Positions 25,498 to 62,896 of a DNA stretch of 64,000 nucleotides are shown piece by piece. Source of the stretch: Cyanobacteria bacterium REEB67 (GTDB lineage: Bacteria; Cyanobacteriota; Vampirovibrionia; Obscuribacterales; Obscuribacteraceae); NCBI GenBank assembly GCA_018971775.1, contig JAGXAB010000028.1, positions 1-64,000 of the forward strand, in the 5' to 3' direction. Positions within the stretch are counted from its first letter, which is position 1. Each line of letters begins with the position of its first letter. Made by a program: the position numbers and the translations under genes. A model generated the notes under the pieces. The model was given only the letters and a program-made list of their open reading frames with translations, was not told where the DNA came from and made no database searches.

Positions 25498-26550
25498 ATG
25501 ACTTTCGAAGACCACAATACCAAGACCAATAAAGCGCCGCAGTCCACATCCGGACCGCCGGGCAAGGATTTTTATTACATCCTCGGCGTACCGCCCAATG
25601 CCACCACGGAAGAAATCACCGAGGCTTATCACGAGCTGCACGCCAAGTTCGGCCCAAACTCCGGTACCGAGATGGACGAGCAACTTCAAGCCCGCACTAT
25701 CCGCGATTTGCGCGCCGCTTACGAGACGCTTTCGGATCCGGCTCGTCGCCGCGATTACGATAAAAATAGCGCCACTTTTCGCCAGACTTCCGACGTCAGA
25801 GCACTCTGGAGCAAGGTGACATCGGGCGTCCAGCAGGTCGTACAGTCGCGCGAACAAGCTCAGACCCTGGAATTGAAAGGCGGCGCTGGTGGCCGCATGC
25901 AGCAACAGCCTACAGGTAAAATACAGGCCCAGCCCCTCGAGATGGAAATCGACGTCTCTCTCAAAGAGGCGGTCAAAGGCTGCCATCGCCAGCTGACGGT
26001 AAGCGATCCGAAAGCCTGCGAAGAGTGCAGTAATCTCAAACCGGTCGAGCGGATGAAATGCACTCACTGTCGCGGTGTCGGCTATTTCACTGTGGAGCGG
26101 CATGTCGAGCTCGACTTGCCCAAAGGTCTCTACGACGATCTGGAAATCCGGCGCAGCGGTCAGGGCAAATGGGACATACGCGCCAATGCCTACGGCGACC
26201 TGGTGATCAAGGTAAAAGTGCGCAAGCATCCGGTTTTAGGCGTGCTCGGCCGCGACATCACCTTGAACGTACCGGTCACACTCTACGAAGCCATGCTCGG
26301 CGCCGAGATCGAGGTGCCTACGGCCACCGGTCGCGGCGTCATGAAAATTCAACCGCTCACTCAACCTGGCCGCGTCTACCGCCTCAAAGGCCTGGGGCTT
26401 GCCGGCGCCGACCAGTTAATCACTATAGATGTAATCATACCGGCAAAAATCACCGCCGAAGAAGTGCACCTTTTTCAAAAGCTGAAAGAGATGTCCAAAG
26501 AACCAAATCCCCGCGAAGCTCTTTTTACTGACGTGCAGTCGGTCAGTTAA
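25498..26550 (+). CDS. DnaJ-family protein with J-like domain lacking HPD
   Basis: FYYILGVPPNATTEEITEAYHELHAKFGPNSG..LRAAYETLSDPARRRDYD; short CEEC..CTHC finger; DnaJ C-terminal domains. Confidence 0.8.
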   Translation: MTFEDHNTKTNKAPQSTSGPPGKDFYYILGVPPNATTEEITEAYHELHAKFGPNSGTEMDEQLQARTIRDLRAAYETLSDPARRRDYDKNSATFRQTSDVRALWSKVTSGVQQVVQSREQAQTLELKGGAGGRMQQQPTGKIQAQPLEMEIDVSLKEAVKGCHRQLTVSDPKACEECSNLKPVERMKCTHCRGVGYFTVERHVELDLPKGLYDDLEIRRSGQGKWDIRANAYGDLVIKVKVRKHPVLGVLGRDITLNVPVTLYEAMLGAEIEVPTATGRGVMKIQPLTQPGRVYRLKGLGLAGADQLITIDVIIPAKITAEEVHLFQKLKEMSKEPNPREALFTDVQSVS

Positions 26551-27237
26551 CGAAGCGACTTTAGTGGGAAAATCCATCCTCGCATTCGCCTGACTCCGAG
26601 GCGCCCCGAAATACCTAGCGCAAGCCGCGCCATCGCCCCCGTACAACCGACCACTGAATCATTTAGCCGGTTTCACCTGGCAACCACTTTTGCCCGCGCG
26701 AGCCCCCCAAAAATAGTCACGAATCCGGAGTATCGGCCCTCTTCCTGGAGCAAAAACGCGAGCCGGCCCCCGCTCTTTGCAGGCGCCCCTGTTCAGATTG
26801 CCTTAAGAATTCCCTAAACGCTTCTCATACAAGGGCTTTGTGCGCCTCGCGGCAAGTGTTAACGGTGCATAACAAGTACTTAAGGCGCCCACAGGGCCAT
26901 TGTCGTTCGGATCTGCGGGCCGCTAGGCTGCAGGTATCTTCTTTTCTTGCCTTGTTTAAGGACCCCAACCTAAAACACCCAGGCCACTAGCATCTAACCC
27001 GGCACCCCACCTCTGACCCTGAGTCCGATGGCTGACCGGCTGAAAATGTGCGTGCAAACTGGCGTTTCTTTTACCAGGACAAGTAAGTCGCCAAGCTTAT
27101 TTTTCTGAAGGGCTGCGTGCAAAGCCCGCTTACTGCAGACGTCTCTACTCATCTGTCTGTAAGACCCTAACGCGGCCTCGTCAACTGAGGCTAAAACCTT
27201 TTACGCCTCAATTGGCAGAGGCTGTATGGAGATAACC

Positions 27238-28275
27238 ATGACAAGTTCAAAAGTAACGGTTTCTTCGGTCAGCGGCACCCCCGACGCTTCCCGGCGCATT
27301 CGCCGTATCGTCGACAAGCTCGCTCGCCATAAGAAACTCAACATCGAAGCTTCGCGCCAGGCCCTGCGGGACGCCATCAAGCATGCAAATGATATGCACG
27401 CTCTCGGCTTCCTCCACTACGCTGGCGTCCTCGACCTCCACCTGCCCGACGGCACGACGGTCGCAATCATCCCGGACTGGCACATCCCCGCCCATGACCG
27501 TCAAGTGACGTTTATGGTCAAGCAGTGGCTGTCCGACCTTCGCCCCGACATCATCATCCTGATCGGTGATGCCGCGGACATGTTCGGTCTCTCGCGCTGG
27601 CCCAAGCCGCCCCGCGTCGTCGCCAACACCCAGAGCGAACTCGACGAAACGCGTCGGATCATCGACGACATCATCGAATGCTCCGGCTGTATGCACGTCT
27701 TCTACATCCTCGGCAACCACGAGGATCGCGGCCGCCGCACCCAGATCGACCCGAACTCCAACGTGGCCAGCCTGATCGACCCGTCGACGCAGGAACCCAT
27801 CCTCAACTTCCACTTCCTCATGGGCTACAAGCCCGGCGACCCGATCACGTTCATCTACGGCGCCTTCGAGGATGGTGGCTTCGGCGGTGGCATCCTGATC
27901 AACGGCGAAATCAAGTTCATCCACGGCAACAAGGTCCGTCCGAAGCCGGGCGCCAGCCCCTACGCGGAAGCGGACGCCGCCGGCAAGAGCATCGGTCAGG
28001 GTCACACCCACCGCTATGCCAAGCGGGCCCGCCGCAACACCAAGAGCGGTCTGATTCGTAGCTACGAGTTTGGCTTCCTCGGCGACGAGCGTCACCCCTA
28101 CCTCGGCTACGCCTTCAACACCAACTGGCACCAGGGTGTTGCAACCGGTCGCGTGCACGGCGACTTGCTGCACATCGAGATGCACCCCGTGAAGAAGATC
28201 AAAGACAAGCTCACCGGTCAGATCAGCAGCCTGATGCTGGCCGGCTCGAAGCTGTACCAGTCATCCGGCTACTGA
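27238..28275 (+). CDS. Calcineurin-like metallophosphoesterase
   Basis: IIPDWHIP (DxH), LIGDAADMF (GDxxD), ILGNHED (GNHE), FIHGNK, GQGHTHR (GHTH); SD GGAG. Confidence 0.85.
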   Translation: MTSSKVTVSSVSGTPDASRRIRRIVDKLARHKKLNIEASRQALRDAIKHANDMHALGFLHYAGVLDLHLPDGTTVAIIPDWHIPAHDRQVTFMVKQWLSDLRPDIIILIGDAADMFGLSRWPKPPRVVANTQSELDETRRIIDDIIECSGCMHVFYILGNHEDRGRRTQIDPNSNVASLIDPSTQEPILNFHFLMGYKPGDPITFIYGAFEDGGFGGGILINGEIKFIHGNKVRPKPGASPYAEADAAGKSIGQGHTHRYAKRARRNTKSGLIRSYEFGFLGDERHPYLGYAFNTNWHQGVATGRVHGDLLHIEMHPVKKIKDKLTGQISSLMLAGSKLYQSSGY

Positions 28276-28374
28276 GCCGCCCTTACCAACCCTGAGCAGC
28301 CCTCCCTTGCGCATTACACATGCGTCACGGTATGGCTCTCGATTTCTACCGTCTAATTCCGCAAGGAGAATATT

Positions 28375-29142
28375 ATGAGCGTTAACAAGAAATCCAAAGG
28401 GCTAGTTCTGGCAGCGGCTCCGTCCGCCCCGAACTGGCCTCACACCTGCATCACCAATCCGGCCAAGCACTTCGAATGGGCACCCATTCTGCTGTCGGAC
28501 CTGCACGGTGTGTTCGTCGACTGGGAAACCAAGTTCCAGTCCTTCTGCGCCTCCCACGGCGTGCACTTCGAAATCGAAGGTCGCACCTTCTACGACATCG
28601 GCCGCGACCCGTCGCAGTCGATCACCCCGGATCAGTTCGCCGAGCTCTTCACTGAGTTCGTCCGTCTGCCCGAGGGCTATGGCGCGCTCGAGCCCAACCC
28701 GGTGGTCATCCACCAAATGGAAGCGATCGTCAAGGCCGGCATCAAGCTGGTCATCGCCACCTACACCCCCGGCGCCACGGACCTGCGTCCCGACGGCACC
28801 ATGGGCTTCCACCACGGCATCGCCCAGCGTGTCACCAAGGAGCTGATCATCAAGCACCTCGGCCACCTGATCCGCGAGCAGGACATCATCTTCTGCAGCC
28901 CCAGCGCCAAGAAGCACCTCATGTTCGAGATGCACTGCCCGCTGATCGTGGAAGACCATCCCGTCACCGCCGTCGATGTCGCTACCAGCGCCCACGCAGC
29001 CATTCTCGTGCCGCGCTCGTACAACGCTTCGATCATCAACGTCACCAACGTGCTGCGTTTGGAAGACGACAACCAGCTGGCGGACGCCGTGCTTTCCTTC
29101 TTCGAGGGCATCCTCGACGCTGGCAAGCTGGCCAAGGCCTAA
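28375..29142 (+). CDS. HAD-superfamily-like protein
   Basis: ILLSDLHGVFVDWETKF (motif I-like), LVIATYTPG (motif II-like), PLIVEDHPVTA (motif IV-like); SD AAGGAG. Confidence 0.55.
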   Translation: MSVNKKSKGLVLAAAPSAPNWPHTCITNPAKHFEWAPILLSDLHGVFVDWETKFQSFCASHGVHFEIEGRTFYDIGRDPSQSITPDQFAELFTEFVRLPEGYGALEPNPVVIHQMEAIVKAGIKLVIATYTPGATDLRPDGTMGFHHGIAQRVTKELIIKHLGHLIREQDIIFCSPSAKKHLMFEMHCPLIVEDHPVTAVDVATSAHAAILVPRSYNASIINVTNVLRLEDDNQLADAVLSFFEGILDAGKLAKA

Positions 29143-29153
29143 GGAGTTTTATC

Positions 29154-30392
29154 ATGCCTAACAAAGCAACTTACAACAAGAAGGTTGTCGTCAAGGAGAT
29201 CCCCCGGACCTCGCTTGCCGAAGCCGGTATCTATCGTCTGAGTCTGCCCGACGGCGCCAAGGTAGTCGCCCTGGCCAACGCCCTCTGGCCGCACCACGAC
29301 CGCAACCTCGACAAGATGTACAAGGACTTCATCGCCGACTACCAGCCCGACGTCGTCGTGCTGCTCGGTCAGATGCTGGACCACGAAGCGTTCCGCGCCC
29401 TCACCGAGGACGAGCGCAACTACCTGCACAAGCAGACCGACACCGACGAAGTCTCGATCGCCCGCGAAGCCGGCGCCTTCGAAGACATGGTCAAGTCGAT
29501 GCGCGAGCAGGCCGGTCGTTACATCGAATCCTTCGCCATCGGCAAGACCAAGGTCTTCTACGTGCCCGGTGTTCGCACCGAGCACAAGATCGTGGAATAC
29601 GTCCAGCAGGAGAAGGACTTCCGCGACAACTGGACGACCAATCACCCGGAAGCGGCCGACTTCCCGTCCGACCCGGATCGCAAGATCCCCGGCGAATTCG
29701 ACAAGTTCCTTTGCCTGAACAAGTCGAAGCGCGTCCGCGTCCTGCCCTACGAAGCGGCGCTTCTGATCAACGAGCACACGCTCTACATGATCGGCGACTT
29801 CAAGCGTCGTCACCCCGGGGACGCCGTTTACGTCGAATGGGAACAGCGCCACTATTCGCTGGTCCGCTCTTTCGACGGCAAGCTGTCTTCGGCCTGGCAC
29901 ACGTCGGTCGAGCACACGCAGCCGACGCTGCTCAAGAACTATCACGAGACGCACGAGGTGGGCTACTTCTGGGATGACCTGAAGAACGGCCACCTGCGCG
30001 ACTATGACCGTCGTGCTCAGGGCTTCTTCTATGGTGAATATCACCTGGGCGAGCTCTTTGCCGAAACGGCCTTCGTGATGCGCGGCACCGGCGGTCTGCG
30101 CTCCTTCGTCGTGGGCGGCAAGGCTTACACCGAAGAGACCGCTGGCGGCCTCGACAACGGTGGCGAGCTGACCCTGGCTGACGAGACGGAGTCGGAAGAC
30201 GACGAGTGGAATATTTTCTCTCGTCCGGAACCGGCCCCGGCAGCTGAAGTCGAAGCCCCGGCTCCGGCCAAGGCCAAGACCGTAAAGGGGAAAGCTGCGA
30301 CGAAAGCCGCGGCCAAGAAGCCCGCTCGCAAACCGGCCGCCAAGTCCAGGGCGAAAGCTCCGGCCAAGAGCAAGAGCACGAAGAGCAAGTAA
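29154..30392 (+). CDS. Metallophosphoesterase-like pseudoenzyme with histone-H1-like C-terminal tail
   Basis: LPDGAKVVALANALWPHHDRNLDKMYKDFIADYQPDVVVLLGQMLDHEAF aligns with gene 27238 LPDGTTVAIIPDWHIPAHDRQVTFMVKQWLSDLRPDIIILIGDAADMFGL. Tail KAKTVKGKAATKAAAKKPARKPAAKSRAKAPAKSKSTKSK. SD AAGGAG. Confidence 0.7.
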   Translation: MPNKATYNKKVVVKEIPRTSLAEAGIYRLSLPDGAKVVALANALWPHHDRNLDKMYKDFIADYQPDVVVLLGQMLDHEAFRALTEDERNYLHKQTDTDEVSIAREAGAFEDMVKSMREQAGRYIESFAIGKTKVFYVPGVRTEHKIVEYVQQEKDFRDNWTTNHPEAADFPSDPDRKIPGEFDKFLCLNKSKRVRVLPYEAALLINEHTLYMIGDFKRRHPGDAVYVEWEQRHYSLVRSFDGKLSSAWHTSVEHTQPTLLKNYHETHEVGYFWDDLKNGHLRDYDRRAQGFFYGEYHLGELFAETAFVMRGTGGLRSFVVGGKAYTEETAGGLDNGGELTLADETESEDDEWNIFSRPEPAPAAEVEAPAPAKAKTVKGKAATKAAAKKPARKPAAKSRAKAPAKSKSTKSK

Positions 30393-30424
30393 GCTCTGAG
30401 CGCGGGACAGAATCAGGTCAGGGT

Positions 30425-30470
30425 GCCGCAGTCTAGGATCGGGATTTATTTCTCGATACCTGACTGCGGC
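30425..30470 (+). terminator. Hairpin after the three-gene cassette
   Basis: GCCGCAGTC...GACTGCGGC with T-rich downstream sequence. Confidence 0.65.
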
Positions 30471-30570
30471 GCTCTTTTGACTTGATTTTGTTTTACCGAT
30501 TTCTATTACTTGCGATAGTAAAAACCGCGCTTTTTTTTTCCAAAAAGAGAAATGAGCAGGGCAAAAAAAA

Positions 30571-31021: not shown

Positions 31022-32101
31022 TCAACGAGATTTAGAAGAAGCCTGGGCCGATGCCAGCACCACTTTAGTGGGCGGCAGTTTGGCCAGCGCCTCCGCCGTG
31101 TAGGAGGGCACCAGGTAGTCGAAGACCGCCTTGATGCCCTGGTGCTCCTCTTCGCCGAGGACTTCATCGCGGTAGATCACTCTGTCGCAAGTGCGCAGGA
31201 TGTCGGCCACCTCGATCGGTCCGTTATACGAGTAGAGAAGGTAGTAGCTCGCTTCCAGGGTCGTCTTGGTCTCGACCTTGTAGAGCCTGCGCAATAGCTG
31301 CGAGAGTTCGGCATAGCGATCGGCGCTTCTGTCGCCCGCTTCCATCCTCGACCAGATCTCGTTGAAATCGCGGCGTGCCAGCAAAAAGCGATTGGGCAAA
31401 CCTTTCAGTTCGAGCGCAATCGGCTGTTCGCGCCTGTAGCGCAGGAAGAGAGAGAAGAAGAAAATGGCGCCAAACAGACCGCCCAGGACCAGCGCGCCGG
31501 TGGCCAATGGGTCGAGGCCGGGATTGAAGCGCAGCTTGCCTTCCTGGACGATGTCGCGTCCGTCCCAGGTATTCGAGGTGAAAGCTTCGAGGGCGGGCAA
31601 GGTCACGGTGACGTCTTCATTAGTGGCTTTGATGCGATAGCTCAAGTTGGCATTGAGCACCAGCTTGGCTGCCGGTGAAAAACTCTGCAGCTTGACCTCG
31701 ACACGCAGACGACGAGAGCCGTCCGCTGCGGTGCGAGCGAAGAACGACGGCTCGCCGACGATTTCGAAGTCGCCGTCCACGGCCATGCTGTGCAGGTCGA
31801 TTTCGCTGCCCCGTTTTTCCTTGAAGAATATTGTCACCGGGATGACATCACCGATGCGGTAGCCGTAGTCGCGACCGACCACGACGACAACCTCGGGAGC
31901 AAGACTGGCTGCCGCTGCCTGCTGTGCCGCAGTCGGTGCCTGACCGGCGACGACGTCGGAGGGAAAGGTCGGCCACTGTGTGCGCCCCTCCCAGTAGAAC
32001 CAGGCGAGGCTGCCGCAGACAGCCGCAATCAGAAGCGTGATCAGGAGAAAAGCACTGAAGCGACCCAACTTTTTGGGGCCGCGATCATTTTCGATCTGCA
32101 T
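31022..32101 (-). CDS. Membrane-anchored protein of VWA operon (BatD/DUF4381-like)
   Basis: N-terminal TM, beta-rich ectodomain, second TM near 230; position downstream of two VWA genes. Confidence 0.5.
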   Translation of the reverse strand: MQIENDRGPKKLGRFSAFLLITLLIAAVCGSLAWFYWEGRTQWPTFPSDVVAGQAPTAAQQAAAASLAPEVVVVVGRDYGYRIGDVIPVTIFFKEKRGSEIDLHSMAVDGDFEIVGEPSFFARTAADGSRRLRVEVKLQSFSPAAKLVLNANLSYRIKATNEDVTVTLPALEAFTSNTWDGRDIVQEGKLRFNPGLDPLATGALVLGGLFGAIFFFSLFLRYRREQPIALELKGLPNRFLLARRDFNEIWSRMEAGDRSADRYAELSQLLRRLYKVETKTTLEASYYLLYSYNGPIEVADILRTCDRVIYRDEVLGEEEHQGIKAVFDYLVPSYTAEALAKLPPTKVVLASAQASSKSR

Positions 32102-33191
32102 GGGAGCCCCCTTTCTTTGGATTCGGACGGGCGAAACGAGCTTCCGCCGCAATCAACATTGCCAGTACAAGAGAGAGAAAGGCGGTCAGCAGAGCATAGG
32201 GGAAAAGCTCCAGCGTTCCTGGCTTACGGACGGTTTCCAGACGCGATACCATGCGCGTCATGGTGAAATCCGAAGCCTTTTCTACTCTTGTGTAACGGCC
32301 ACCGACGGCATTTTTCAAGAGCAATAGCGAATTTTCGTCAAGGCGGCTAGTCACCACCTCGCCGTCATTTTCATAGTACTGTTTGTCATGATAGAGCGCC
32401 TGATCCTGCGGTGAGAGCAGAGCCACAGGCACAGCCGAAGGAGTAAGCTTGCCCAGTCCAGCAATAATCAGCTCGATATTGCGCTTCTTCAACTCTCGGA
32501 TAATCACAGCCATGTCGTCGTAGCTGGAATCATTGCCGCCGTCCGAAAAGAGCACGATGACACGCCGATGTTCAGGCTTGGAGTCGAGGTCGAAGAGCTG
32601 AAAAGCCATATCGAAAGCCATGGCCAGTTCGCTGCCTTCGCCCGGGGCGCTGCCGACGTAAACGGCACGGTTGGTCACCCAGCGCAATGCTTCCATGTCA
32701 TGGGTTAGGAAAGCCTGGGGCCAGGCCTTCCCCGAGAAGGTGACCATACCAAGCTGGTTGTAGCTGAGCGAGCCCATCACATCATGAATGAGCAGATACT
32801 TGGCCATGTCCAGCCTGCGACCTTGGTCATAGGGCTTGGGAAGCTGGCCTCTGTAATCGGGGATAGCCATCGAGCGACTGACGTCGACGACGGCCATGAC
32901 ATCGATTGTGCCGGTGGGAAATTCGGCATTGCCGTGTTCGCGCACCGGCCTGGAAAGAGCGACAATCAGAGCCGCGGCGGCGATCGAGAGGAAGAGCAGC
33001 CGCAATGCCAGGCGCCCTTTCGTGATCGGTTGGATGAACGGTTGAATCAGGGGGCGTTCCCCGTATTCATCGAGGATTTTTTCAGTGCGGTGCCTGGCAA
33101 GCAAGTAGCCCAGTCCAGCGAGGACGGGGACAAAAGCAAGAAGCCAGAGCACTTGCTGATTGATGAAGTGCATGTGTTGCATGATTTGCAT
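32085..33191 (-). CDS. VWA-domain membrane protein (BatA/BatB-like)
   Basis: MIDAS VAVVDVSRSM (DxSxS); N- and C-terminal TM. Confidence 0.8.
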   Translation of the reverse strand: MQIMQHMHFINQQVLWLLAFVPVLAGLGYLLARHRTEKILDEYGERPLIQPFIQPITKGRLALRLLFLSIAAAALIVALSRPVREHGNAEFPTGTIDVMAVVDVSRSMAIPDYRGQLPKPYDQGRRLDMAKYLLIHDVMGSLSYNQLGMVTFSGKAWPQAFLTHDMEALRWVTNRAVYVGSAPGEGSELAMAFDMAFQLFDLDSKPEHRRVIVLFSDGGNDSSYDDMAVIIRELKKRNIELIIAGLGKLTPSAVPVALLSPQDQALYHDKQYYENDGEVVTSRLDENSLLLLKNAVGGRYTRVEKASDFTMTRMVSRLETVRKPGTLELFPYALLTAFLSLVLAMLIAAEARFARPNPKKGGSHADRK

Positions 33192-33202
33192 AACTGGCCT
33201 CG

Positions 33203-33766
33203 TTAGATACCCTTCTTGCCTTGATGGCTGGCACCGCCGCCGGGTTGCTGGCCAGGCTGATTACCACCCTGACCGGCACCGTCGCCTTTGCCCGCGCCAC
33301 CGCCGCCGCCACCACCGGAGGGCTTGGTCAGCCGCTCGAGATTGTATTTGGCCGCAAGATGGTCGGGGTTGTGCCGAAGGGCTTGTTTGTAGGCGTCTAC
33401 CGCCTGGGACTGTTGTTTATTCTTCTCGCGACTGATGCCCAGCAAAAACTGGATATCAGCCGCTTCGCTCTGAGCGCGTGCCGTTGTCGGAATTGATCCG
33501 GTCTGGGCGGTCAGCGTCGAATAAGCTCTGGAGGCGAGCTGGGCAGCGACGTCGTACTGATGGGCCTTGTACTGTTGCAGAGCGGCGTCATAATATGCCA
33601 CCACTTTGTCGCCGTAATCGGATTGGGCCGCCGTGTCAGGGTGGCCGAGGTAGAGAGGCAAGGTGTAGCTCACCAGGCGCAGCACTCCCACGGAAAATAC
33701 TCCGAGGAAAGCGATGGCAGCCAGCACGGCTAAAAATCCCCGCCCTTTGTAGAGAAATTTTTGCAT
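33203..33766 (-). CDS. TPR protein with Gly-rich tail (BatC-like)
   Basis: TM anchor; DAYKQALRHNPDHLAAKYNLERLTKPSGGGGGGGAGKGDGAGQGGNQPGQQPGGG. Confidence 0.7.
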   Translation of the reverse strand: MQKFLYKGRGFLAVLAAIAFLGVFSVGVLRLVSYTLPLYLGHPDTAAQSDYGDKVVAYYDAALQQYKAHQYDVAAQLASRAYSTLTAQTGSIPTTARAQSEAADIQFLLGISREKNKQQSQAVDAYKQALRHNPDHLAAKYNLERLTKPSGGGGGGGAGKGDGAGQGGNQPGQQPGGGASHQGKKGI

Positions 33767-33812
33767 AAAAACTCCTGTTATTCAGGCTCTGGAAAAGATT
33801 GACCGCCGGCGT

Positions 33813-34922
33813 TTACTGGTTATGCACGAGCAGCGAGGCGAAGAAGCCCAGGGTGAGCAAACCGAGGGCGGCGAAGGCGAAGTAGATGAAGCGCTCATCG
33901 CGCTTTTCGGTAGAGGCAACCTTGATCGAAGAGCGCTCCATGCTGTCTATTTGCTCGAAGACTTTTTGCATGTCGCCGGCTTGCTCGACGCGGAAGACAT
34001 GACCGTGGACGGCATCGGCCAGGCGCATCACGTCGACCTGTTGTGTGGCCAGAGTTTCACCGACGCCGACGACATAGAAATGCACATCGTGGCTGTTGAG
34101 CTTGTCGGTCAGACGTTGCATCGCCTCGGGAGAAATCTCGTCCTCGCCGTCGGTGACCATGATGATCACCTTGCTGCGCGCCTTGCCTATTTCATCAAAA
34201 TGGGCGATAGCTGCGTCGATCGGACCGGGATCGATCGAGCCAAAATTAGTGCCATCACCGACGGTGCGCGACAGAAACTTGGCATTGCGGTAGATGATTT
34301 TCAGATCATCGGTGAGAGGCCAAAACCAGTACTGGTAGATGTCGAAAGTCATCACGGCAATGCGATCGTTTTGCCTGGCGATGTAACGATTGCGGATGAA
34401 ATCTAGAACGGCAGCCTGAGCTACTTTGATCCGCGTCAGCGTATTGGGATCGGGCGGACCGTCATAGCCGCCGTAAGAACCCTGGCCGCCACCGGCAAAC
34501 CCGGGAGAAGACGATGAAGCACTGCCTCCCGCCGATTTGTCGGCATCGAGGGCCGAGGTCGGCATGCCCGGGAAGTCTTTATCCAGATCGGTAGCGGGGG
34601 CGCTGTGTTGCGGAGCATCGCCTGTCACCGGTGAACCCATCGAGCCGGACTTGTCGACCGTGATGATGATATCGCGCGCCTTGATGCTGTCATCAGCTTC
34701 GTAGTAGACGCGTTGAGGCCGAGCGAGAGCGCCGATCAGGGCGACCAGAGCAAGAGTGAACAGTAGTTTGGGCAAAACGAGAAGGAAGCGGCTGCCGAAC
34801 CCGTTGCCGAGTCCGTTGAGATGGGTAAGTCCGACCTTACCGCGACGCCTCAAAAACAGCCAGTAGACTGGAATCAGCAAAAGCGCTGCAAACCAGTACG
34901 GTTGTGAGAAAGTCATAGTCAT
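33813..34922 (-). CDS. VWA-domain membrane protein (BatA-like)
   Basis: MIDAS ITVDKSGSM; TM segments at both ends. Confidence 0.8.
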   Translation of the reverse strand: MTMTFSQPYWFAALLLIPVYWLFLRRRGKVGLTHLNGLGNGFGSRFLLVLPKLLFTLALVALIGALARPQRVYYEADDSIKARDIIITVDKSGSMGSPVTGDAPQHSAPATDLDKDFPGMPTSALDADKSAGGSASSSSPGFAGGGQGSYGGYDGPPDPNTLTRIKVAQAAVLDFIRNRYIARQNDRIAVMTFDIYQYWFWPLTDDLKIIYRNAKFLSRTVGDGTNFGSIDPGPIDAAIAHFDEIGKARSKVIIMVTDGEDEISPEAMQRLTDKLNSHDVHFYVVGVGETLATQQVDVMRLADAVHGHVFRVEQAGDMQKVFEQIDSMERSSIKVASTEKRDERFIYFAFAALGLLTLGFFASLLVHNQ

Positions 34923-35338
34923 ACCTGCTTTGATAAGAGGCTGGCCCGCTCCGGCAAACACCTGAAGTGCCTGGGGGCGAGCAGAAAAGCATTAGTGTCT
35001 GGGCTCAGACGCTGGAGAAGGAGAAACCGAAAAAGAAACTAGGGGGAGAGTTAGTACCTGAACCTAGAAGGTAAGCCTCAGAGTTCTCAATATAAATGAG
35101 AGATAAAGCCGTTAAAAGAAACTGAGCTTGCCCGAAAGCCGCTAACGACGCCGTTGCCAAGAAGAGATATCCGACCGGTCTGCTGCCACCGCTAGCTTCG
35201 CTAAAAGCTTAAACTTCGGCCGGAGCATAGCAAAAGGGAGCGGGCCTTGCTTCCGTTCGGCAATTTTTTGCTGCCATTTCCGAGGAAATTTCCGGAAGGC
35301 TGGGAACAAAATTAGAGACAGCCAAAGGACAACTTCGC

Positions 35339-36558: not shown

Positions 36559-37461
36559 TTACGATTTAGTTCCCGCCGGTGGAGTGCCACCATTTATAGC
36601 GGCGGATTTATTACCTTCCTCGACTTTTGTCACGCTGGGCACTTCGGGAAGAGCCGAAGTTGCGGCGAACTGACCGACTACTTTGACGTAGGACGGATCG
36701 CTAGTGGAGATACCATAGCCAACCGTGTAGATTTCGGCAATGACGGCCTGCAAGGTGGCGTCGTTGCCTGCAAGGGCAGCGAAATCAAACCAGAGCAACT
36801 CGCCGTGCCTGGCAGCAAGACCGGGACTGTAGCTGGGCAGTAAATAGCTTTTACCGACCAGACGCTGGCAGCCAAGACGCTCATAAAAAGCCAGACGACG
36901 CTTGCGCGCGCTCGCATCGGCGATACTCAAATTTGGCTCGAGCGTCGACTCGATTTCGAGGAAGAGCCCGAGATGATTCGGGTGAGATTTCTTGAGCAGG
37001 TCGATCAGAGCGTTCATATGCTTGCTGCCGATACCACTCGACCGCTTGGTCTGGTCCGTTGCGATATAGGCCAGCAAGAGAAAATTACTCATCGGAGTGA
37101 CAAGCGAAAAACAATGCAGAGAACTATCTGCAGCGGTCGACTTGTGCAGGAAGATGTTGCCGGCGGCAAGCATCGATCTGCACAAGTCGACAGGCATACG
37201 CTCGTCTTCGGGGAAGGACGCCTCGTAGAGATTTTTCCAGTCCTCTTCTACACCGGCGCTCGGCACGCAGAGACTGGCTGCACGATGGGGAGTGGTCGCG
37301 GGCGTAGCGTGATCGCTTGCGGAATCAGGACCGACAACTGGGACAGCAGGAATGGAAGTAGGGCTGGAAGCGGGGCTAGAAATTTGGCTAGGACTGGGAT
37401 TCGTACTGGTACTTGTACTGGCTTCCGTGTTTGTACCGGGATTTGTGGTTGTACTGGACAT
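36559..37461 (-). CDS. GNAT-family acetyltransferase with Ser/Thr/Pro-rich N-terminus
   Basis: FLLLAYIATDQTKRSSGIGSKHMNALIDLL (motif A RSSGIG), RLAFYERLGCQRL. Confidence 0.7.
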   Translation of the reverse strand: MSSTTTNPGTNTEASTSTSTNPSPSQISSPASSPTSIPAVPVVGPDSASDHATPATTPHRAASLCVPSAGVEEDWKNLYEASFPEDERMPVDLCRSMLAAGNIFLHKSTAADSSLHCFSLVTPMSNFLLLAYIATDQTKRSSGIGSKHMNALIDLLKKSHPNHLGLFLEIESTLEPNLSIADASARKRRLAFYERLGCQRLVGKSYLLPSYSPGLAARHGELLWFDFAALAGNDATLQAVIAEIYTVGYGISTSDPSYVKVVGQFAATSALPEVPSVTKVEEGNKSAAINGGTPPAGTKS

Positions 37462-37913
37462 ACATTTGCTCTTGGGTTGGGCTCCCACCACAAGCAGGTC
37501 TCTGACAAGCAGACCGGGCGTGGGTGCAAGAAGCTCAAACCTCAGCTCAGTGACAATCTATACATGACCGACTCAGACGAGCGCGCCTTGAGTAAGAGAT
37601 GAGACTGGAGACTGGGTTGAGGTTTGAGTTTCTTAGGTGTTTGTTTTGGGAGAGAAGGAGGGGGAAATTTAGACTCTCACCATAGCCACTTGCTGTTGGC
37701 CACTCAATCATCGAGGAAACGACTCAGGAAGCAGATCTAAAGCGCCTTCCCTTGACGACTGTTTTTCCGCTCTTCCAAATCAACCGAAACAGGCCGATAC
37801 TCAGCCTTTGCTCAAAGTCTAACGGAGCGCCGTCCAATGACAACCCAAAGCGCCAAAAAAACTTTTCCGGCGCCTTTCTTTTTTCGTCCATCAAAGCTCG
37901 CGCGACCGCTTGT

Positions 37914-56529: not shown

Positions 56530-57804
56530 TCACATGCTCAGTGGACGGGGGATGATCTGGTCGACTTCGGCCATGCACTCTCTGTGCTCGGCGGCACTGA
56601 GAGTCTGCCGATCAACGAGCACCCGCTCGATTTTGGCCAGGGCCGAAATCGTCAGCTTGAGGATGGCGTCGGCCGGGAACGCGCCGGCGATTGCCGAGGC
56701 GGGCATGGACTGGATGCCGGGATAGGTAGGTGCCAGGTACTGCCTGATCACCTGGCTGATGCGAGCATAGTGATTGGCCGAGTAGCCGATCTCTTTGCCC
56801 GAGGCCTGCACGCGGTTGAGCGCAAGCCAGGCGGCAGCCTGCCGGGGCATCTGTCGGCGAGGGCGCACCCGGTTGACGAAGCGCATGAGAGCCACGGCCG
56901 GCCAGAGCAGCAGCAAAACCACCATCAGGATGGTGGCCGGGGCCATGGCCCAGGACTGTCGCGGCTGGCTGAGACCAGTGTTACCCAGGGTGGGCTGGCT
57001 CATGCCGGTCTGGCCGTTGACGTCCTGCATGATTATGAAGTCGGGCGTCTGCAGCGGTTCCCAGAGGGCTTGCCCGCTTGGCGTGAAGCTGGTCGCATAG
57101 GGAATCTGCATGGTAAAGGTGCTGTACGGGCCGGGGGCAAACTGCCGCACTAGCAGCGTCAGATTGTACTGGACACCGCCTTTGATCACCTTCTGTGTCA
57201 TGACGGGCCGATCGGCGAGTTCGAAGGGGCCTGAGCCGACCAGATAGAGCCGCCCCTGCTTGAGCAGAGGGTTGAGGTCGATCTTGGCTCCATCGGCCAC
57301 ACCAATAACCACATTGACGACAATATTGTCGCCGACATGATATTCGTACGGGCGCGCCGAGACATCAACCAGCAGCATACCGCCGGCGCAGGACATCTTG
57401 GCGACGCCCTGGACCTTGAGGGGAGCCGGGGGAGTCGCCTGAGCCGAGGGAGTGGCCCCTGGAGTGGTGGCGGTACCGGTATCGGGGCTGGCCGGAGCAG
57501 CGGGGGGAGTTGCCGTCGCCGGGGCGGTAGCAGCGGCCGCAGCCGCAGTACTGCTCGGGTCGCCGGGCAGAGCGGGCCCACAGGTGTTGGCTGGCAACTG
57601 CACGGCGGGCTGGGGCGTGGGGACGGCCGCAGTGGAAGCGGCGCTGCCGGCGGCAGCAGGCGCGCTGGCGCTGGGCGCCGTGGCGGGTGTGCTGGCGCTG
57701 GGCGGCACGCCGAGTGAGGGTGGATCCGCCAGGGTCGTCCCGGCGGTGAAGGACAGCATCAATGCTGCCCCGGCAAGAAGAAGAAGAAGAAGCAGGTGTT
57801 TCAT
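56530..57804 (-). CDS. BatD/DUF4381-like membrane protein with Ala/Pro/Thr-rich N-terminus
   Basis: Signal peptide, low-complexity linker, ectodomain, TM, cytoplasmic tail; operon context. Confidence 0.5.
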   Translation of the reverse strand: MKHLLLLLLLAGAALMLSFTAGTTLADPPSLGVPPSASTPATAPSASAPAAAGSAASTAAVPTPQPAVQLPANTCGPALPGDPSSTAAAAAATAPATATPPAAPASPDTGTATTPGATPSAQATPPAPLKVQGVAKMSCAGGMLLVDVSARPYEYHVGDNIVVNVVIGVADGAKIDLNPLLKQGRLYLVGSGPFELADRPVMTQKVIKGGVQYNLTLLVRQFAPGPYSTFTMQIPYATSFTPSGQALWEPLQTPDFIIMQDVNGQTGMSQPTLGNTGLSQPRQSWAMAPATILMVVLLLLWPAVALMRFVNRVRPRRQMPRQAAAWLALNRVQASGKEIGYSANHYARISQVIRQYLAPTYPGIQSMPASAIAGAFPADAILKLTISALAKIERVLVDRQTLSAAEHRECMAEVDQIIPRPLSM

Positions 57805-57809
57805 TGGTA

Positions 57810-58751
57810 TTACTCCTGGTACCTGACACCGGTCAGGACGGGAACGAGTTTCAGGTCGATGCCTTCATCTCCATCCGAGGTGTTGAACTCCTCGACTGCA
57901 GCCCCGGCGTCGCCAAGGCTGTGGCGCAACCTTTTGCGCTCGCTGTCAAACTCGGCCGCCCACTGGGCGCGCCGTCTTTTGCTCAGCCAGACGGTAGTGC
58001 TGCGCCCGGTCCTCAGATCTTTCAGCTCGCGCAGCCCGAAGCCTTCGGGCAATTCGCGCTCTCTGACGTCACCGATGATCAGACAGACCAGGTCGTGCAC
58101 GTGGCCGACCGTGGTCAGAGATTGCAGCTCTTCTGCCGTAAGATTGTGGAAGGTGGATATGACAAAGACCAGGCAGCGTTCGGTCAGGGGCAGACGCAGG
58201 AGCGCCTGCTGCAGGCCGGAGACACTGCTTTCGTTGTTGATGAAGGAAGATTCGTCGGGATCAAGATAACTGTAAAGCGCCGGCAACAGCTGACTGGAGG
58301 CGCTCTTGGGCGGCAGTATCTGCTGCAGGTGCTGCTCATCGTAGGTGATGACGCCGGCGCGATCGTCGCGCGACGCCGCTCCCAAGATGCGCCCCAAGAG
58401 AGTGGCTGCCAGGGTGCGCTCGGTCATGTTTTGCGTGCCGAAGATCAAAGCCGGTGAATTGTCGGCAATGGTCCAGACCGTCAAATCGCGCGGCTCTTCG
58501 TAGAGAGCGGCCAGGGTTTCGCGCCAGCCGGTCTTGGCAGAGGCCTTGCCGTCGACGCGATCGCCTGGATCCCACTCTTTCAGCTTGGCCAGGTCGAAGC
58601 CGGTATCGCCCATGATGCGGGTACGCCGGTCGCCGCTGCCCGGTTCCACCTTGTTGGTGGGCCAGGCAATGGTCAGACCGACAGGCACGATGCCCGACAG
58701 GATTGTCTGGATGGTTTCGGCCGCTTCGGAGCGTTCAGATTTTGAATTCAT
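57810..58751 (-). CDS. DUF58-like protein
   Basis: FDLAKLKEWDPGDRVDGKASAKTGWRETLAALYEEPRDLTVWTIADNSPALIFG resembles the DUF58 core; adjacent to moxR. Confidence 0.65.
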   Translation of the reverse strand: MNSKSERSEAAETIQTILSGIVPVGLTIAWPTNKVEPGSGDRRTRIMGDTGFDLAKLKEWDPGDRVDGKASAKTGWRETLAALYEEPRDLTVWTIADNSPALIFGTQNMTERTLAATLLGRILGAASRDDRAGVITYDEQHLQQILPPKSASSQLLPALYSYLDPDESSFINNESSVSGLQQALLRLPLTERCLVFVISTFHNLTAEELQSLTTVGHVHDLVCLIIGDVRERELPEGFGLRELKDLRTGRSTTVWLSKRRRAQWAAEFDSERKRLRHSLGDAGAAVEEFNTSDGDEGIDLKLVPVLTGVRYQE

Positions 58752-58813
58752 GGTGTAATCTCCACACGGTTAGCTGGTTGCTCTCATGGCAACGGTCCAC
58801 ACTGGACCGCGCC

Positions 58814-59836
58814 TCAGGGCGCCGGCGTGCCGCGCAGGACAGCGTCGATGAAATCGTTGATGCTGACCTTGTGCTTGCCGACCTTGGAGAGCGAGCCCAT
58901 GAGGATGTGGGCGCGGGCGACATCGGGGAAGACTGCCTGCACGTGCTCGACGCGCACCTTGTCTTCGCCGGCCATGAAGGCGATTGCCGCCGCCGCCTTG
59001 CGCAGGCCCATGGCCATGCGGGGCGAGCCGCCGTAGGTGACCAGGGCCTCGAAGCTGCGCCCGTCGATGGTCTTGAACTGCTTGAACTGCGGCTTGGCCG
59101 GGTTGCAGCTCTGTGTCAACTGGGTGATGTACTGCTTCAGATGCGGGCTGACGCCGTCGGTGGCCAGGAGGCGCACCTGCTTCTGCATCTGGCGGATGTC
59201 GGTGATGGTCAGGCTGGGCACGATCATGCTCTCGGGATCGCGATCGAAGAGCACGGCGCGGCTGTGGATTTCATCCATTTCGGCATCGCTGGGATAGCCC
59301 CACTCGATGTCCATGAGCAGGCGGTCCTTGAGGGCGTCGCCGAGCTCGTAGGTGCCGGCCGACTCGAAGTCGTTGCGCGTCATCACGGAGATGAAGATGT
59401 CTTCCAGGTCGTGGCGGACGCCATCGATGGTCAGGAAGCGCTCCTCCAGCGCCTGGAGCAGCGAGCTCAGCACGCGCGGCGAGGCGCGGTTGATCTCGTC
59501 GATCAACAGGACGTTGACCTTGAGCATCGGACCGGGGCGAAATTCTCTGCCCGTGGCGGTCTCAATGTTGTAGCCGGTAATGTCGGAGGGGCGCATGTCC
59601 GGCACCATCTGGATGCGGCCGCGCAAGCAGCCCTCGATGCCGGCCTGCACGACCTTGGCGATCAGGGTCTTGCCCAGACCGGGCATGGTGACGAGAGAAG
59701 CATGGCCGTCGGCGAGCAGGCAGGCGAAAACCGAGGCCAGCTCACGGGTATGGCCGACGATCACTTTGTTGGCCTCGTTGAGGAAGTCCACGGAACGGGA
59801 TTCCGTTACCTTGAAGTCTTTGAGATCGATTGACAT
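58814..59836 (-). CDS. MoxR-family AAA+ ATPase
   Basis: SLVTMPGLGKTLIAKVV (Walker A), VLLIDEINRASPRVLSSLLQALEER (Walker B). Confidence 0.9.
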   Translation of the reverse strand: MSIDLKDFKVTESRSVDFLNEANKVIVGHTRELASVFACLLADGHASLVTMPGLGKTLIAKVVQAGIEGCLRGRIQMVPDMRPSDITGYNIETATGREFRPGPMLKVNVLLIDEINRASPRVLSSLLQALEERFLTIDGVRHDLEDIFISVMTRNDFESAGTYELGDALKDRLLMDIEWGYPSDAEMDEIHSRAVLFDRDPESMIVPSLTITDIRQMQKQVRLLATDGVSPHLKQYITQLTQSCNPAKPQFKQFKTIDGRSFEALVTYGGSPRMAMGLRKAAAAIAFMAGEDKVRVEHVQAVFPDVARAHILMGSLSKVGKHKVSINDFIDAVLRGTPAP

Positions 59837-59927
59837 TTCGATGTTTCCTTAATGTCAGTGAGGTTGAACAGGCAGAAGCGCAGATCTGAGAAATCGCGCC
59901 CTGCGGCATATATGGCAGGCAGCCGGC

Positions 59928-61082
59928 TCAGCGAGTCTGGCTGGGGGAAGACCGGCGCCAGGGCCGACCCTTGAAGGAAAGAAAACGTGCAGGCAGGGCC
60001 CGCAGGAAGACGATGGCAAGGAAAAACATGGCAGCACCAAGCGGATACTGGTAGAGCTGGAGCTGCTGGATCTCCACCTTGCTGCCGGCCAGAACAGACG
60101 GCCAGTTGATGGACAGAGGCTCTCCGGCAGAGGCCTTGATGTAGACTCCACCGGCCGAGTCGGCCAGTGACTGCAGGAAGGCGTCATCCCGGTAGGAAGT
60201 CAAAGCCGGTTGGCCTTGGCCCGGGAAATAGCCGGTCAGATTGCCCTGATCGTCATACAGAGGAAGGGCCGATGGCTCAGGCGAGCCAATCCCGACGATG
60301 ACCAGCTTGACCGCTTGCTTGCGGATTTGCGCCACCACCTTGGCCAGATCGGCCGGCGTGCCGTCATGGCCGCCGTCGGTGAAGAGGATGATCACTTTCC
60401 CAGGGGCTGCCTTGCCGGCATCGTTCTGGTCGTGATCGAGCACGGCCAGGGCGCTGGCCAGGCCGGTCTCGACATAGCTGCCCGTACCGGGAGCACTGCC
60501 GACGTCGACCCAGCGCCAGGCGGTGAGCAGGGTGACCAGGGGAGCGAAGTCGTCGTTGAGATACGACTTGACTGTCCCGTCTCCGGAGTAGACAACCAGA
60601 CCAAGCTGGTTGCCCGTGATGGCCGGCATGATCTGCTTGCGCAGGATGAGCCGGGCAATGCTCATACGGCTGCCGCAGGGGCCATGCACGGTCGAGCAAT
60701 CGGCTCCACCGAAGGCCTGGTCGTTCTGGCGGTTGTCCTCCGAATCCATGGAGATGGAGCTGTCGAAAGCAGCGGCCACGCGCAGGGAGCCCGAGGGCAC
60801 CGCCACAGGCCGGGTGGGCAGGTAGGGCATGGTGGCGGCTGCCGCACAGAGCACTACCGCCAGGGAGAAGGCCGCTACAATAAGCCATTCCTTAAGCAGT
60901 GATGGAGCGGTGCTGAATCTTGAGACCAGCCTTTCATCGCCGTACTGGCGAAAGGCCCGCAGGCGCCAGCGCCAGCTAGCCAGCCAGAAGAGCACGACCA
61001 GCACCATCCCCGGTACCGCGTACCAGATGTACTGCGGGTGCTGGAAGAGGATTTGGTGGAAAAGACCGAAGAGATGACTCAT
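59928..61082 (-). CDS. VWA-domain membrane protein
   Basis: VAAFDSSISMDSED (DxSxS MIDAS); TM segments. Confidence 0.8.
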   Translation of the reverse strand: MSHLFGLFHQILFQHPQYIWYAVPGMVLVVLFWLASWRWRLRAFRQYGDERLVSRFSTAPSLLKEWLIVAAFSLAVVLCAAAATMPYLPTRPVAVPSGSLRVAAAFDSSISMDSEDNRQNDQAFGGADCSTVHGPCGSRMSIARLILRKQIMPAITGNQLGLVVYSGDGTVKSYLNDDFAPLVTLLTAWRWVDVGSAPGTGSYVETGLASALAVLDHDQNDAGKAAPGKVIILFTDGGHDGTPADLAKVVAQIRKQAVKLVIVGIGSPEPSALPLYDDQGNLTGYFPGQGQPALTSYRDDAFLQSLADSAGGVYIKASAGEPLSINWPSVLAGSKVEIQQLQLYQYPLGAAMFFLAIVFLRALPARFLSFKGRPWRRSSPSQTR

Positions 61083-61097
61083 GTTCTTCTCCCCGGA

Positions 61098-61802
61098 CTA
61101 AATGGCGGTCGGGTTGTTATGCGTAAATCCCTGGCCGCCAGGATTGCCGCTGGACGGCTGACCGCCCCGCTTACCGTCCATCTTTTGTTTGCCCTTGCCC
61201 GGGCCCTGTCCGATCTTGCCCTGGGCCAGCATCTGAGCCAGCTCCGGATGTTGATCGAGCAGCACCTGCATGTTGTTGCGGGTGTCCTGCGCCTCTTTGG
61301 CCAGGCGGCGCAACTGGCAGCTGTCACTGACGGTCAGGTCGTGCGCAGCCACCTGGTCGGAGGGAGCGACGCAGTAGTCCTTGCCGTACTGATGGGCCGG
61401 GTCGTCACGAGGGGTGACTCCTGGGATCAGGGTCTGACCGTTATTGAGCCGCAGCGACTGCACGTATGCGACAAGAGCCTTTTCCGGTTTGTGAGCGGCC
61501 ATCATCATGATGTTGCCCTTCTGGAAGTAGGCCAGTGCCGCCAGTTCTTGATCCGGCTGGGGGTAAAAGAAGCGGGCAAACCAGTTGCCGCCCAGAGCGA
61601 CTTTGTAGGCGTCCAGCGACGCCTGGAAGGCTGCCAGGGCCAGGGCCGGCGAGCTTGAGCTCAGAGCCTTCATGGCGATGTCGTAGTCGATGGACTGCTG
61701 GTCTTCGTAGCCAGCCAGGCGGCTGACACTGCTGACCATTGACAGACCCAGTCCGAGAGCCAGAACAAGCGGGAGAGTCCGCTTCAAGAATGATGTGAAC
61801 AT
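61098..61802 (-). CDS. TPR/BatC-like protein
   Basis: Membrane anchor, ALAAFQASLDAYKVALGG.., Gly/Gln-rich tail; located between two VWA genes as in the 30-35 kb operon. Confidence 0.6.
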   Translation of the reverse strand: MFTSFLKRTLPLVLALGLGLSMVSSVSRLAGYEDQQSIDYDIAMKALSSSSPALALAAFQASLDAYKVALGGNWFARFFYPQPDQELAALAYFQKGNIMMMAAHKPEKALVAYVQSLRLNNGQTLIPGVTPRDDPAHQYGKDYCVAPSDQVAAHDLTVSDSCQLRRLAKEAQDTRNNMQVLLDQHPELAQMLAQGKIGQGPGKGKQKMDGKRGGQPSSGNPGGQGFTHNNPTAI

Positions 61803-61813
61803 GTTCCTGATTC

Positions 61814-62896
61814 CTAAATTTGTTCTCGGGAGAGAGCCGAGAGTAAGAGGTAGGCGGCGCCGAACAGGGCCGCCAGCTTGAGCAGGTCGATCAGGGCATC
61901 TCGGTAACCGAGTACCTGTTTCTCCTGCACGGTGTGACCGGCCAGGTTGTCGATGTCGCTGACCATGGAGTTAAACTTCGAAACATCCTGGACCGACGTC
62001 ACTTCGCCGCCCACCGATTTGACGAAGGCCTTGAGCGGCTGGATGCTGTCGCCGTTGCTGGCCCAGTCGTCACCGATACCGAAGACGAATATATGAATAT
62101 GCAACGCCTTAAACTGAGCGGCCAGAGCGGCTGCCCGGTCGTTATCGATGGAAGAGTCGCCGTCGGTGACCATGATAAAGATGCGTGCCTGGTCGGACCG
62201 GGTCTTGCTGAGCACGTTGATAGCTCCCTGCAGCGCACCGTCCGATTTTTCGTAAACACCGTTCGGGCCATCGAAGTTGGTGCCTCCGCCGCCGGTCGTG
62301 ACAATGTAGTTTTTGATCGACGGCAGGAGGTCGAGGATGACCTGGTGGTTGGTGGTGGGTGGATAGAGGTAGTACACTTCATCGTCGAAAGAAGTGAGGG
62401 CGATGCGCAGCTTGTGGCTGTGCTTGATGAACATTGTGATAGCGCCCAGGGAGGCGTCGATACGCTCGGGAGTATTGGCCGGAGCCTGTTGTCGATCCAT
62501 TGAATAGCCGCCGCCGTATGAGCCGCCGCCCAGAGGGCTGAGCGTGCCGGAGGACGGGGTCGGCGCGGCAAACTGTGGGCCGGCCAGCTTGACCTCGGGC
62601 GCGTCGGTGACGCCAGTGGTCATCGACCCGGAAACATCCTGGGTGATATCGATTGTGCCGCCGGGCTGGCTGACTGTGTGCCAGAACGAGGTCTGGAGCT
62701 GGGCCATGGCCAGGCACAGGACTATCCAGAGCGCAGTTTTGCTGCCCCTGGTAAGCCAGGCGAGTGACGACCAGGCGTTACTCTTTTTGTGAATGCCTGT
62801 CTGGCTATGCCCGAAAACCTGTGAGTGTCCAGTAAGGATCCACAGAGCCGGTACAAAAGCCAGCAGCCACAAAAAATCTATACTCAGAAATTTCAT
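61814..62896 (-). CDS. VWA-domain membrane protein
   Basis: DITQDVSGSMTTG (DxSxS), FIMVTDGDSSIDNDRA. Confidence 0.8.
   Translation of the reverse strand: MKFLSIDFLWLLAFVPALWILTGHSQVFGHSQTGIHKKSNAWSSLAWLTRGSKTALWIVLCLAMAQLQTSFWHTVSQPGGTIDITQDVSGSMTTGVTDAPEVKLAGPQFAAPTPSSGTLSPLGGGSYGGGYSMDRQQAPANTPERIDASLGAITMFIKHSHKLRIALTSFDDEVYYLYPPTTNHQVILDLLPSIKNYIVTTGGGGTNFDGPNGVYEKSDGALQGAINVLSKTRSDQARIFIMVTDGDSSIDNDRAAALAAQFKALHIHIFVFGIGDDWASNGDSIQPLKAFVKSVGGEVTSVQDVSKFNSMVSDIDNLAGHTVQEKQVLGYRDALIDLLKLAALFGAAYLLLSALSREQI

Follow-up and report, generated by a model that had tools for sequence, protein, structure and literature searches.

Subunits with a metallophosphoesterase (MPE) fold and no catalytic role are known from DNA polymerase delta, as its B-subunit, and from retromer, as Vps29, where they serve as scaffold or regulatory subunits. 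The Mre11/SbcD nucleases belong to the same superfamily and act on nucleic acids. In phages, phosphoesterases of the family phrog_221, encoded by actinophages such as Anthony and by Thermobifida phage P318, carry MPE motifs and lie near a class II ribonucleotide reductase (RNR). Another fold is that of the NT5C deoxyribonucleotidases of the HAD superfamily, such as human cdN/mdN and the Staphylococcus epidermidis protein 3bwv. The fold of an MPE does not allow its substrate to be predicted. Here we describe a three-gene cassette that combines relatives of these proteins, located in a 64,000-nucleotide stretch of DNA (the window) from Cyanobacteria bacterium REEB67.

The window comes from a 68-kb contig of a 6.7-Mb genome. 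The named genomes closest to it are Obscuribacterales assembled from metagenomes, among them Cyanobacteria bacterium SZAS LIN-3 and Candidatus Obscuribacter phosphatis. The host of the cassette is a cell of a non-photosynthetic cyanobacterial lineage, not a phage. Gene 1 (27238..28275), gene 2 (28375..29142) and gene 3 (29154..30392) all lie on the + strand, separated by 99 bases between genes 1 and 2 and by 11 bases between genes 2 and 3. A Shine-Dalgarno GGAG, read from the sequence at 27228..27231 (+), precedes gene 1, and AAGGAG precedes both gene 2 and gene 3, so that reading the window bore out the original prediction of three same-strand frames with good ribosome-binding sites and tight spacing. 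The open frame of gene 1 spans 27226-28275 and offers two candidate starts, at 27226 and 27238. The first, an ATG, shares bases with the Shine-Dalgarno GGAG, and the starts in L031-L033 align with the second; the start at 27238, which had also been predicted, was therefore judged the better one. Downstream of gene 3, an imperfect hairpin (30420..30475, +) with T-rich sequence beyond it could be a terminator; its predicted arms (30420-30444 and 30451-30475) are indeed 76% complementary, but a terminator scan called no intrinsic terminator there.

To define the distribution of the cassette, we surveyed 50 genomes of the window's GTDB family and fetched 31 further loci. Of the 50 genomes, 27 yielded gene 1, 25 gene 2 and 27 gene 3; in total, 28 carry the cassette. 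At every locus that no contig end interrupts (24, from 23 genomes, counting the window and one locus whose gene 3 is cut near its end), the three genes are adjacent, on one strand and in the order 1-2-3. With no exception among these 24 loci, chance adjacency was rejected, and the expectation that the three genes travel together held throughout. Contig edges within the cassette had seemed frequent, but a hand estimate from contig density gives about as many. Two copies, L048 in genome G033 and L049 in genome G026, lie off the usual site, and both genomes additionally hold the canonical locus or a piece of one. These copies lack the DnaJ-like gene and the RNR that accompany many other loci; they still keep the three genes in order, which identifies the core of three genes as the unit. 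None of 385 other genomes sampled across the phylum yielded gene 3, and in one genome from a second family of the order gene 1 was found at a contig end. Gene 3 was not found on plasmids, and a plasmid association was rejected. It is highly probable that these genes constitute a genuine Obscuribacterales unit and that, judged by its ligand residues, the unit encodes one active and one dead MPE.

Gene 1 encodes a calcineurin-type MPE with an intact ligand set. It matches Pfam Metallophos above the cut-off (E 7e-6) and, with E 7e-28, phrog_221, a phage-rich MPE family for which 806 phage records have a match. The motifs PDWH, GDAAD, GNHE and GHTH are kept, so that all elements of an active calcineurin-like MPE (DxH, GDxxD, GNH(E/D), H and GHxH) are present. 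Numbered from 27226, residues D84, D115, N164, H165, H233, H260 and H262 are invariant in 26/26 relatives and H86 is kept in 25/26, in full agreement with the claim that gene 1 retains every calcineurin-type motif.

Gene 3 is recognizably related to gene 1. BLASTP between the two gave E ~1e-8 in both directions, and profile-profile comparison with hhalign gave 99.5% probability (E 7.8e-23) over 271 columns. The AlphaFold2 model (pLDDT 81), a structure prediction that had been proposed as a check, showed an MPE fold in the core (~residues 20-330). Foldseek matched this model to LpxH, PP5, Vps29 and Pol delta p50 in the PDB and to phage calcineurin-like phosphoesterases in BFVD (E 5e-15); it fits phage MPE models better than solved structures. 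By homology and predicted fold, gene 3 therefore falls within the calcineurin-like MPEs, but the ligand set of an active MPE is gone: relative to gene 1, D84 is replaced by N42, H86 by L44, D115 by Q73, N164-H165 by V-R and GHTH by SFDG, and the same loss was found in the motif windows of 25/25 gene 3 homologues. In a tree that included phage relatives, gene 3 formed a single clade (100/100) whose branching largely repeats that of gene 1; the tree carries a long-branch warning, and no rooting is claimed from it. The single clade mirroring gene 1 points to one old duplication and inactivation before the family diversified, followed by joint inheritance. Profile comparison, tree, predicted fold and ligand table thus agree with the original prediction of an eroded paralogue, and computation shows gene 3 to be an MPE-fold paralogue that has no active site and stems from one duplication predating family diversification.

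The C-terminal tail of gene 3 (~residues 360-412) is basic and disordered, with a pLDDT of ~40 over the last 50 residues. The original prediction had described it as histone-H1-like and had proposed that it targets nucleic acid. A Lys/Ala/Pro tail is present in the window, but it is not conserved: basic tails of varied make-up occur in ~2/3 of the orthologues, the tail is acidic in L034 and L036, and the divergent lineages L048-L053 have none, so that a conserved Lys/Ala/Pro-rich DNA-binding tail was not found among the gene 3 orthologues. Since the tail varies or is missing while gene 3 persists, it cannot be the defining function of gene 3, and the proposed nucleic-acid targeting by a disordered, unconserved and in places absent or acidic segment was not upheld.

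Gene 2 had been predicted to be HAD-like, and the analysis narrowed this to an NT5C (5'(3')-deoxyribonucleotidase)-like fold. Pfam NT5C matched 7/22 gene 2 members (best E 7e-5), with no significant Pfam match for the window copy itself. The AlphaFold2 model (pLDDT 87) had human 5'(3')-deoxyribonucleotidase as its best PDB match and the deoxyribonucleotidase-like 3bwv also near the top, with TM-scores by target of 0.72-0.84 for the two. Fold and family profile together place gene 2 among NT5C-type HAD proteins, the profile through its relatives. The HAD residues of the window copy are D42-x-H44, T129, K179 and D194. The nucleophile D42, K179 and D194 are invariant in 24 members, and residue 129 is either Thr (22 members) or Ser (2 members). 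Position 44, usually the general acid Asp, is His in 20/24 members and Asp in 4/24. Even close relatives diverge here, with Asp in L044 (1081-1872, -) and His in L045 (6162-6929, -), and this swap suggests that His can serve at position 44 as a working general acid. Gene 2 is probably a nucleotidase-like phosphatase of the NT5C/HAD fold, with putative dNMP hydrolysis; if His44 cannot act as general acid, it may not be a phosphatase.

The interval from the DnaJ-like gene to gene 1 contains a structured 5' leader RNA (27108..27222, +), detected by folding z, compensatory pairs and a covariance model. It comprises a hairpin (27110-27127, +), a second helix of CTTAC (27129-27133) with GTAAG (27159-27163, +), GCCTC/GAGGC helices (27175-27222, +) and a possible pseudoknot (27115-27118 with 27170-27173, +) between an invariant GCGU loop and an invariant downstream ACGC. 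Five genomes share a 24-base block (27110-27133) with at most one differing site. In a sixth (L059), the hairpin is kept and helix 2 changes from CUUAC/GUAAG to CCUGU/ACAGG, with three compensatory pairs in an alignment whose helix-2 loops were hand-trimmed, so that pair counts lean towards structure. The folding z was -4.6 to -5.4 against shuffles. The covariance model found one leader per genome in these six genomes, always directly before the cassette, with E 1e-16 or better; the next matches were at 0.008. Leaders in other genera were also structured, with z <= -4 in 10/26 versus ~2/49 control upstream regions after spurious antisense frames were discounted (p 0.0003), and the covariance model did not recognize the window-type element in them. 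No Rfam family matched the leader, and a known riboswitch was therefore rejected. By computation, at least six genomes have such a structured leader ahead of the operon; the RNA probably tunes operon expression, through translation or transcription, near the ribosome-binding site. Elsewhere in the window, the 160 nt upstream of 36559-37491 (-) also fold unusually well (z -5.2) and may be another structured leader.

We examined codon usage in the window with the ribosomal proteins of the same genome as the CAI reference. Genes 1, 2 and 3 have CAI values of 0.79, 0.79 and 0.75, compared with 0.66-0.79 for ribosomal proteins and a window median of ~0.66. Of 34 genes in the window, nearly all score lower; comparable values are limited to the MoxR-like and FtsH genes. 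Nc of the cassette is 33-36 in the window and in relatives L030-L047, and at 15/21 loci all three genes have an Nc below that of every conserved neighbour compared. The bias is weaker in the divergent lineages L046 and L050-L053. The cassette genes thus carry the codon bias typical of highly expressed genes, from which very high expression is predicted. The MoxR-like ATPase gene, itself strongly biased, belongs to one of two BatA/BatB-like clusters (von Willebrand factor A type, by eye) in the window, at 31022-34961 and 56530-62896, the latter containing it.

The gene neighbourhood was compared across loci. A DnaJ-like gene with a J domain and DnaJ_C (25498..26550, +) is the next gene upstream in 26 loci; it is associated with the cassette and lies outside the core unit. 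Beyond it, 16 loci encode a class II RNR of ~1,050 residues. The DnaJ-like gene occurs in 26/28 cassette genomes versus 4/22 others (p 6e-8) and the large RNR in 26/28 versus 7/22 (p 9e-6), both tests being uncorrected for shared ancestry and missing contigs; common descent and shared contigs partly confound the link between RNR and cassette. REEB67 itself carries its RNR on a different contig from the cassette. Across L030-L056 the large RNR, the DnaJ-like gene and the cassette co-occur patchily, and many family genomes that have no cassette hold only a shorter RNR (~700 aa). In Thermobifida phage P318 and Mycobacterium phage Anthony, too, the phrog_221 MPE is found 2-4 genes from a class II RNR, but phage early regions crowd nucleotide genes together, which makes this adjacency weak evidence. 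The family phrog_420 was absent from the six phage records searched and has matches in 11/14 cellular control genomes, and thus is not phage-specific.

From these observations we tentatively propose that the cassette may be a co-inherited Obscuribacterales operon whose products form an abundant phosphohydrolase complex in the cytosol, one subunit being a pseudoenzyme, with a possible role in DNA-precursor metabolism. Gene 1 would be the catalytic phosphoesterase, as its ligand residues suggest, and gene 3 would be a dedicated non-catalytic partner that positions or regulates it, much as the dead MPE subunits mentioned above do; direct binding of the two proteins is plausible. With less assurance, the substrate of gene 1 may be a nucleotide or a nucleic acid, from which it would cleave a phosphodiester or phosphate. 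Gene 2 would be a second phosphatase for related or successive phosphates and may take a further one off the product of gene 1. The weakest step is that the two enzymes would serve DNA-precursor or nucleotide turnover. Both the NT5C-like fold and the RNR link suggest nucleotides as substrates, DNA precursors being the likeliest, and a role in such turnover could explain why a class II RNR is so often a neighbour. The leader RNA would control expression of the operon. A bolder version, in which an obligate active-MPE/dead-MPE pair and a His-variant HAD nucleotidase form an undescribed, abundant, leader-controlled enzyme machine that helps to supply DNA precursors beside class II RNR in Obscuribacterales, strikes us as unlikely.

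The same three proteins could instead form a nucleic-acid end-processing or repair complex, with gene 1 cleaving nucleic acid or dephosphorylating its ends in the manner of Mre11 or PNKP, gene 3 as a dead DNA- or RNA-binding subunit with a basic tail and gene 2 as a 3'/5' phosphatase. The likeness of the gene 3 fold to MPEs including Mre11/SbcD and the DNA polymerase delta B-subunit, the basic tail in the window species and several relatives, and the occurrence of phage relatives of gene 1 alongside primase, helicase and exonuclease in replication modules are consistent with such a complex. The tail is unconserved, however, no helicase, ligase, Rad50 or polymerase recurs in the cassette neighbourhood, the best fold match of gene 2 is a mononucleotidase, and the abundance suggested by codon bias would be unusual for a repair complex; we consider this reading rather unlikely. 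A role in general phosphate metabolism, as an abundant unit for storage, scavenging or housekeeping of phosphorylated metabolites, would suit two phosphatase folds with strong codon bias in a lineage that is known from the sludge of phosphorus removal and whose relatives include Candidatus Obscuribacter phosphatis isolate EBPR_351. It is nonetheless improbable, being largely guessed from ecology: the N-termini have no evident signal peptide, no phosphate-uptake or polyphosphate genes recur near the cassette, and many related genomes lack the cassette.

The membership of gene 1 in phrog_221, the better fit of gene 3 to phage MPE models and the patchy distribution of the cassette raise the question of domesticated phage genes or an anti-phage system. 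The cassette sites showed no nearby phage or mobile genes, and a prophage or mobile island was therefore rejected; PADLOC gave no match up to E 1, and a defence system was rejected likewise. Gene 2 has at most two weak phage matches and gene 3 only weak N-terminal MPE matches, neither having a phage orthologue, which argues against a phage origin of the whole cassette. Together with stable chromosomal synteny with DnaJ, RNR and cell genes, mirrored gene trees and strong host-type codon bias, this makes a phage or defence cassette very unlikely. We hold it equally improbable that gene 3 is an enzyme with a newly acquired active site built from its own conserved residues (P46, H48, D49, G72, N206 and G270). 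P-x-H-D and other non-canonical positions are conserved across gene 3, but P-x-H is shared with gene 1 and hence probably structural, no clustered new set of acids and histidines is evident, and the classic ligand positions vary. The phosphohydrolase complex with a pseudoenzyme subunit thus remains our preferred, tentative reading.

An operon that has ribosomal-like codon bias, is intact across a deep lineage and stays whole even at second sites probably does something costly and important. For bacteria, the cassette offers a clean test case in which an active enzyme and its own inactive paralogue have stayed together. Gene 2 provides a testable His-for-Asp HAD variant and, in these uncultured cyanobacterial relatives, the leader is a new candidate cis-regulatory RNA. 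As originally predicted, PADLOC and literature searches returned no named system of this composition, and none was found described in the databases and literature searched. The parts all come from known superfamilies; no description of their combination, lineage restriction, His-type HAD or leader RNA turned up in the databases and papers searched. The phrog_221 phosphoesterases, the closest sequence relatives of gene 1 outside the order, are only ~25% identical to it, have no recognized dead paralogue and, in the six records searched, no NT5C-like partner. Gene 2 shares the fold and HAD motifs of the NT5C deoxyribonucleotidases but differs from them in its prevalent general-acid His, its greater length and its constant neighbours. 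Gene 1 shares the MPE superfamily and possible nucleic-acid substrates with Mre11/SbcD, but the cassette has no Rad50/SbcC partner and gene 1 matches generic Metallophos only. The dead MPE subunits of DNA polymerase delta and retromer, both among the structural matches of gene 3, are eukaryotic and have unrelated partners, whereas gene 3 adjoins its own active paralogue in one operon.
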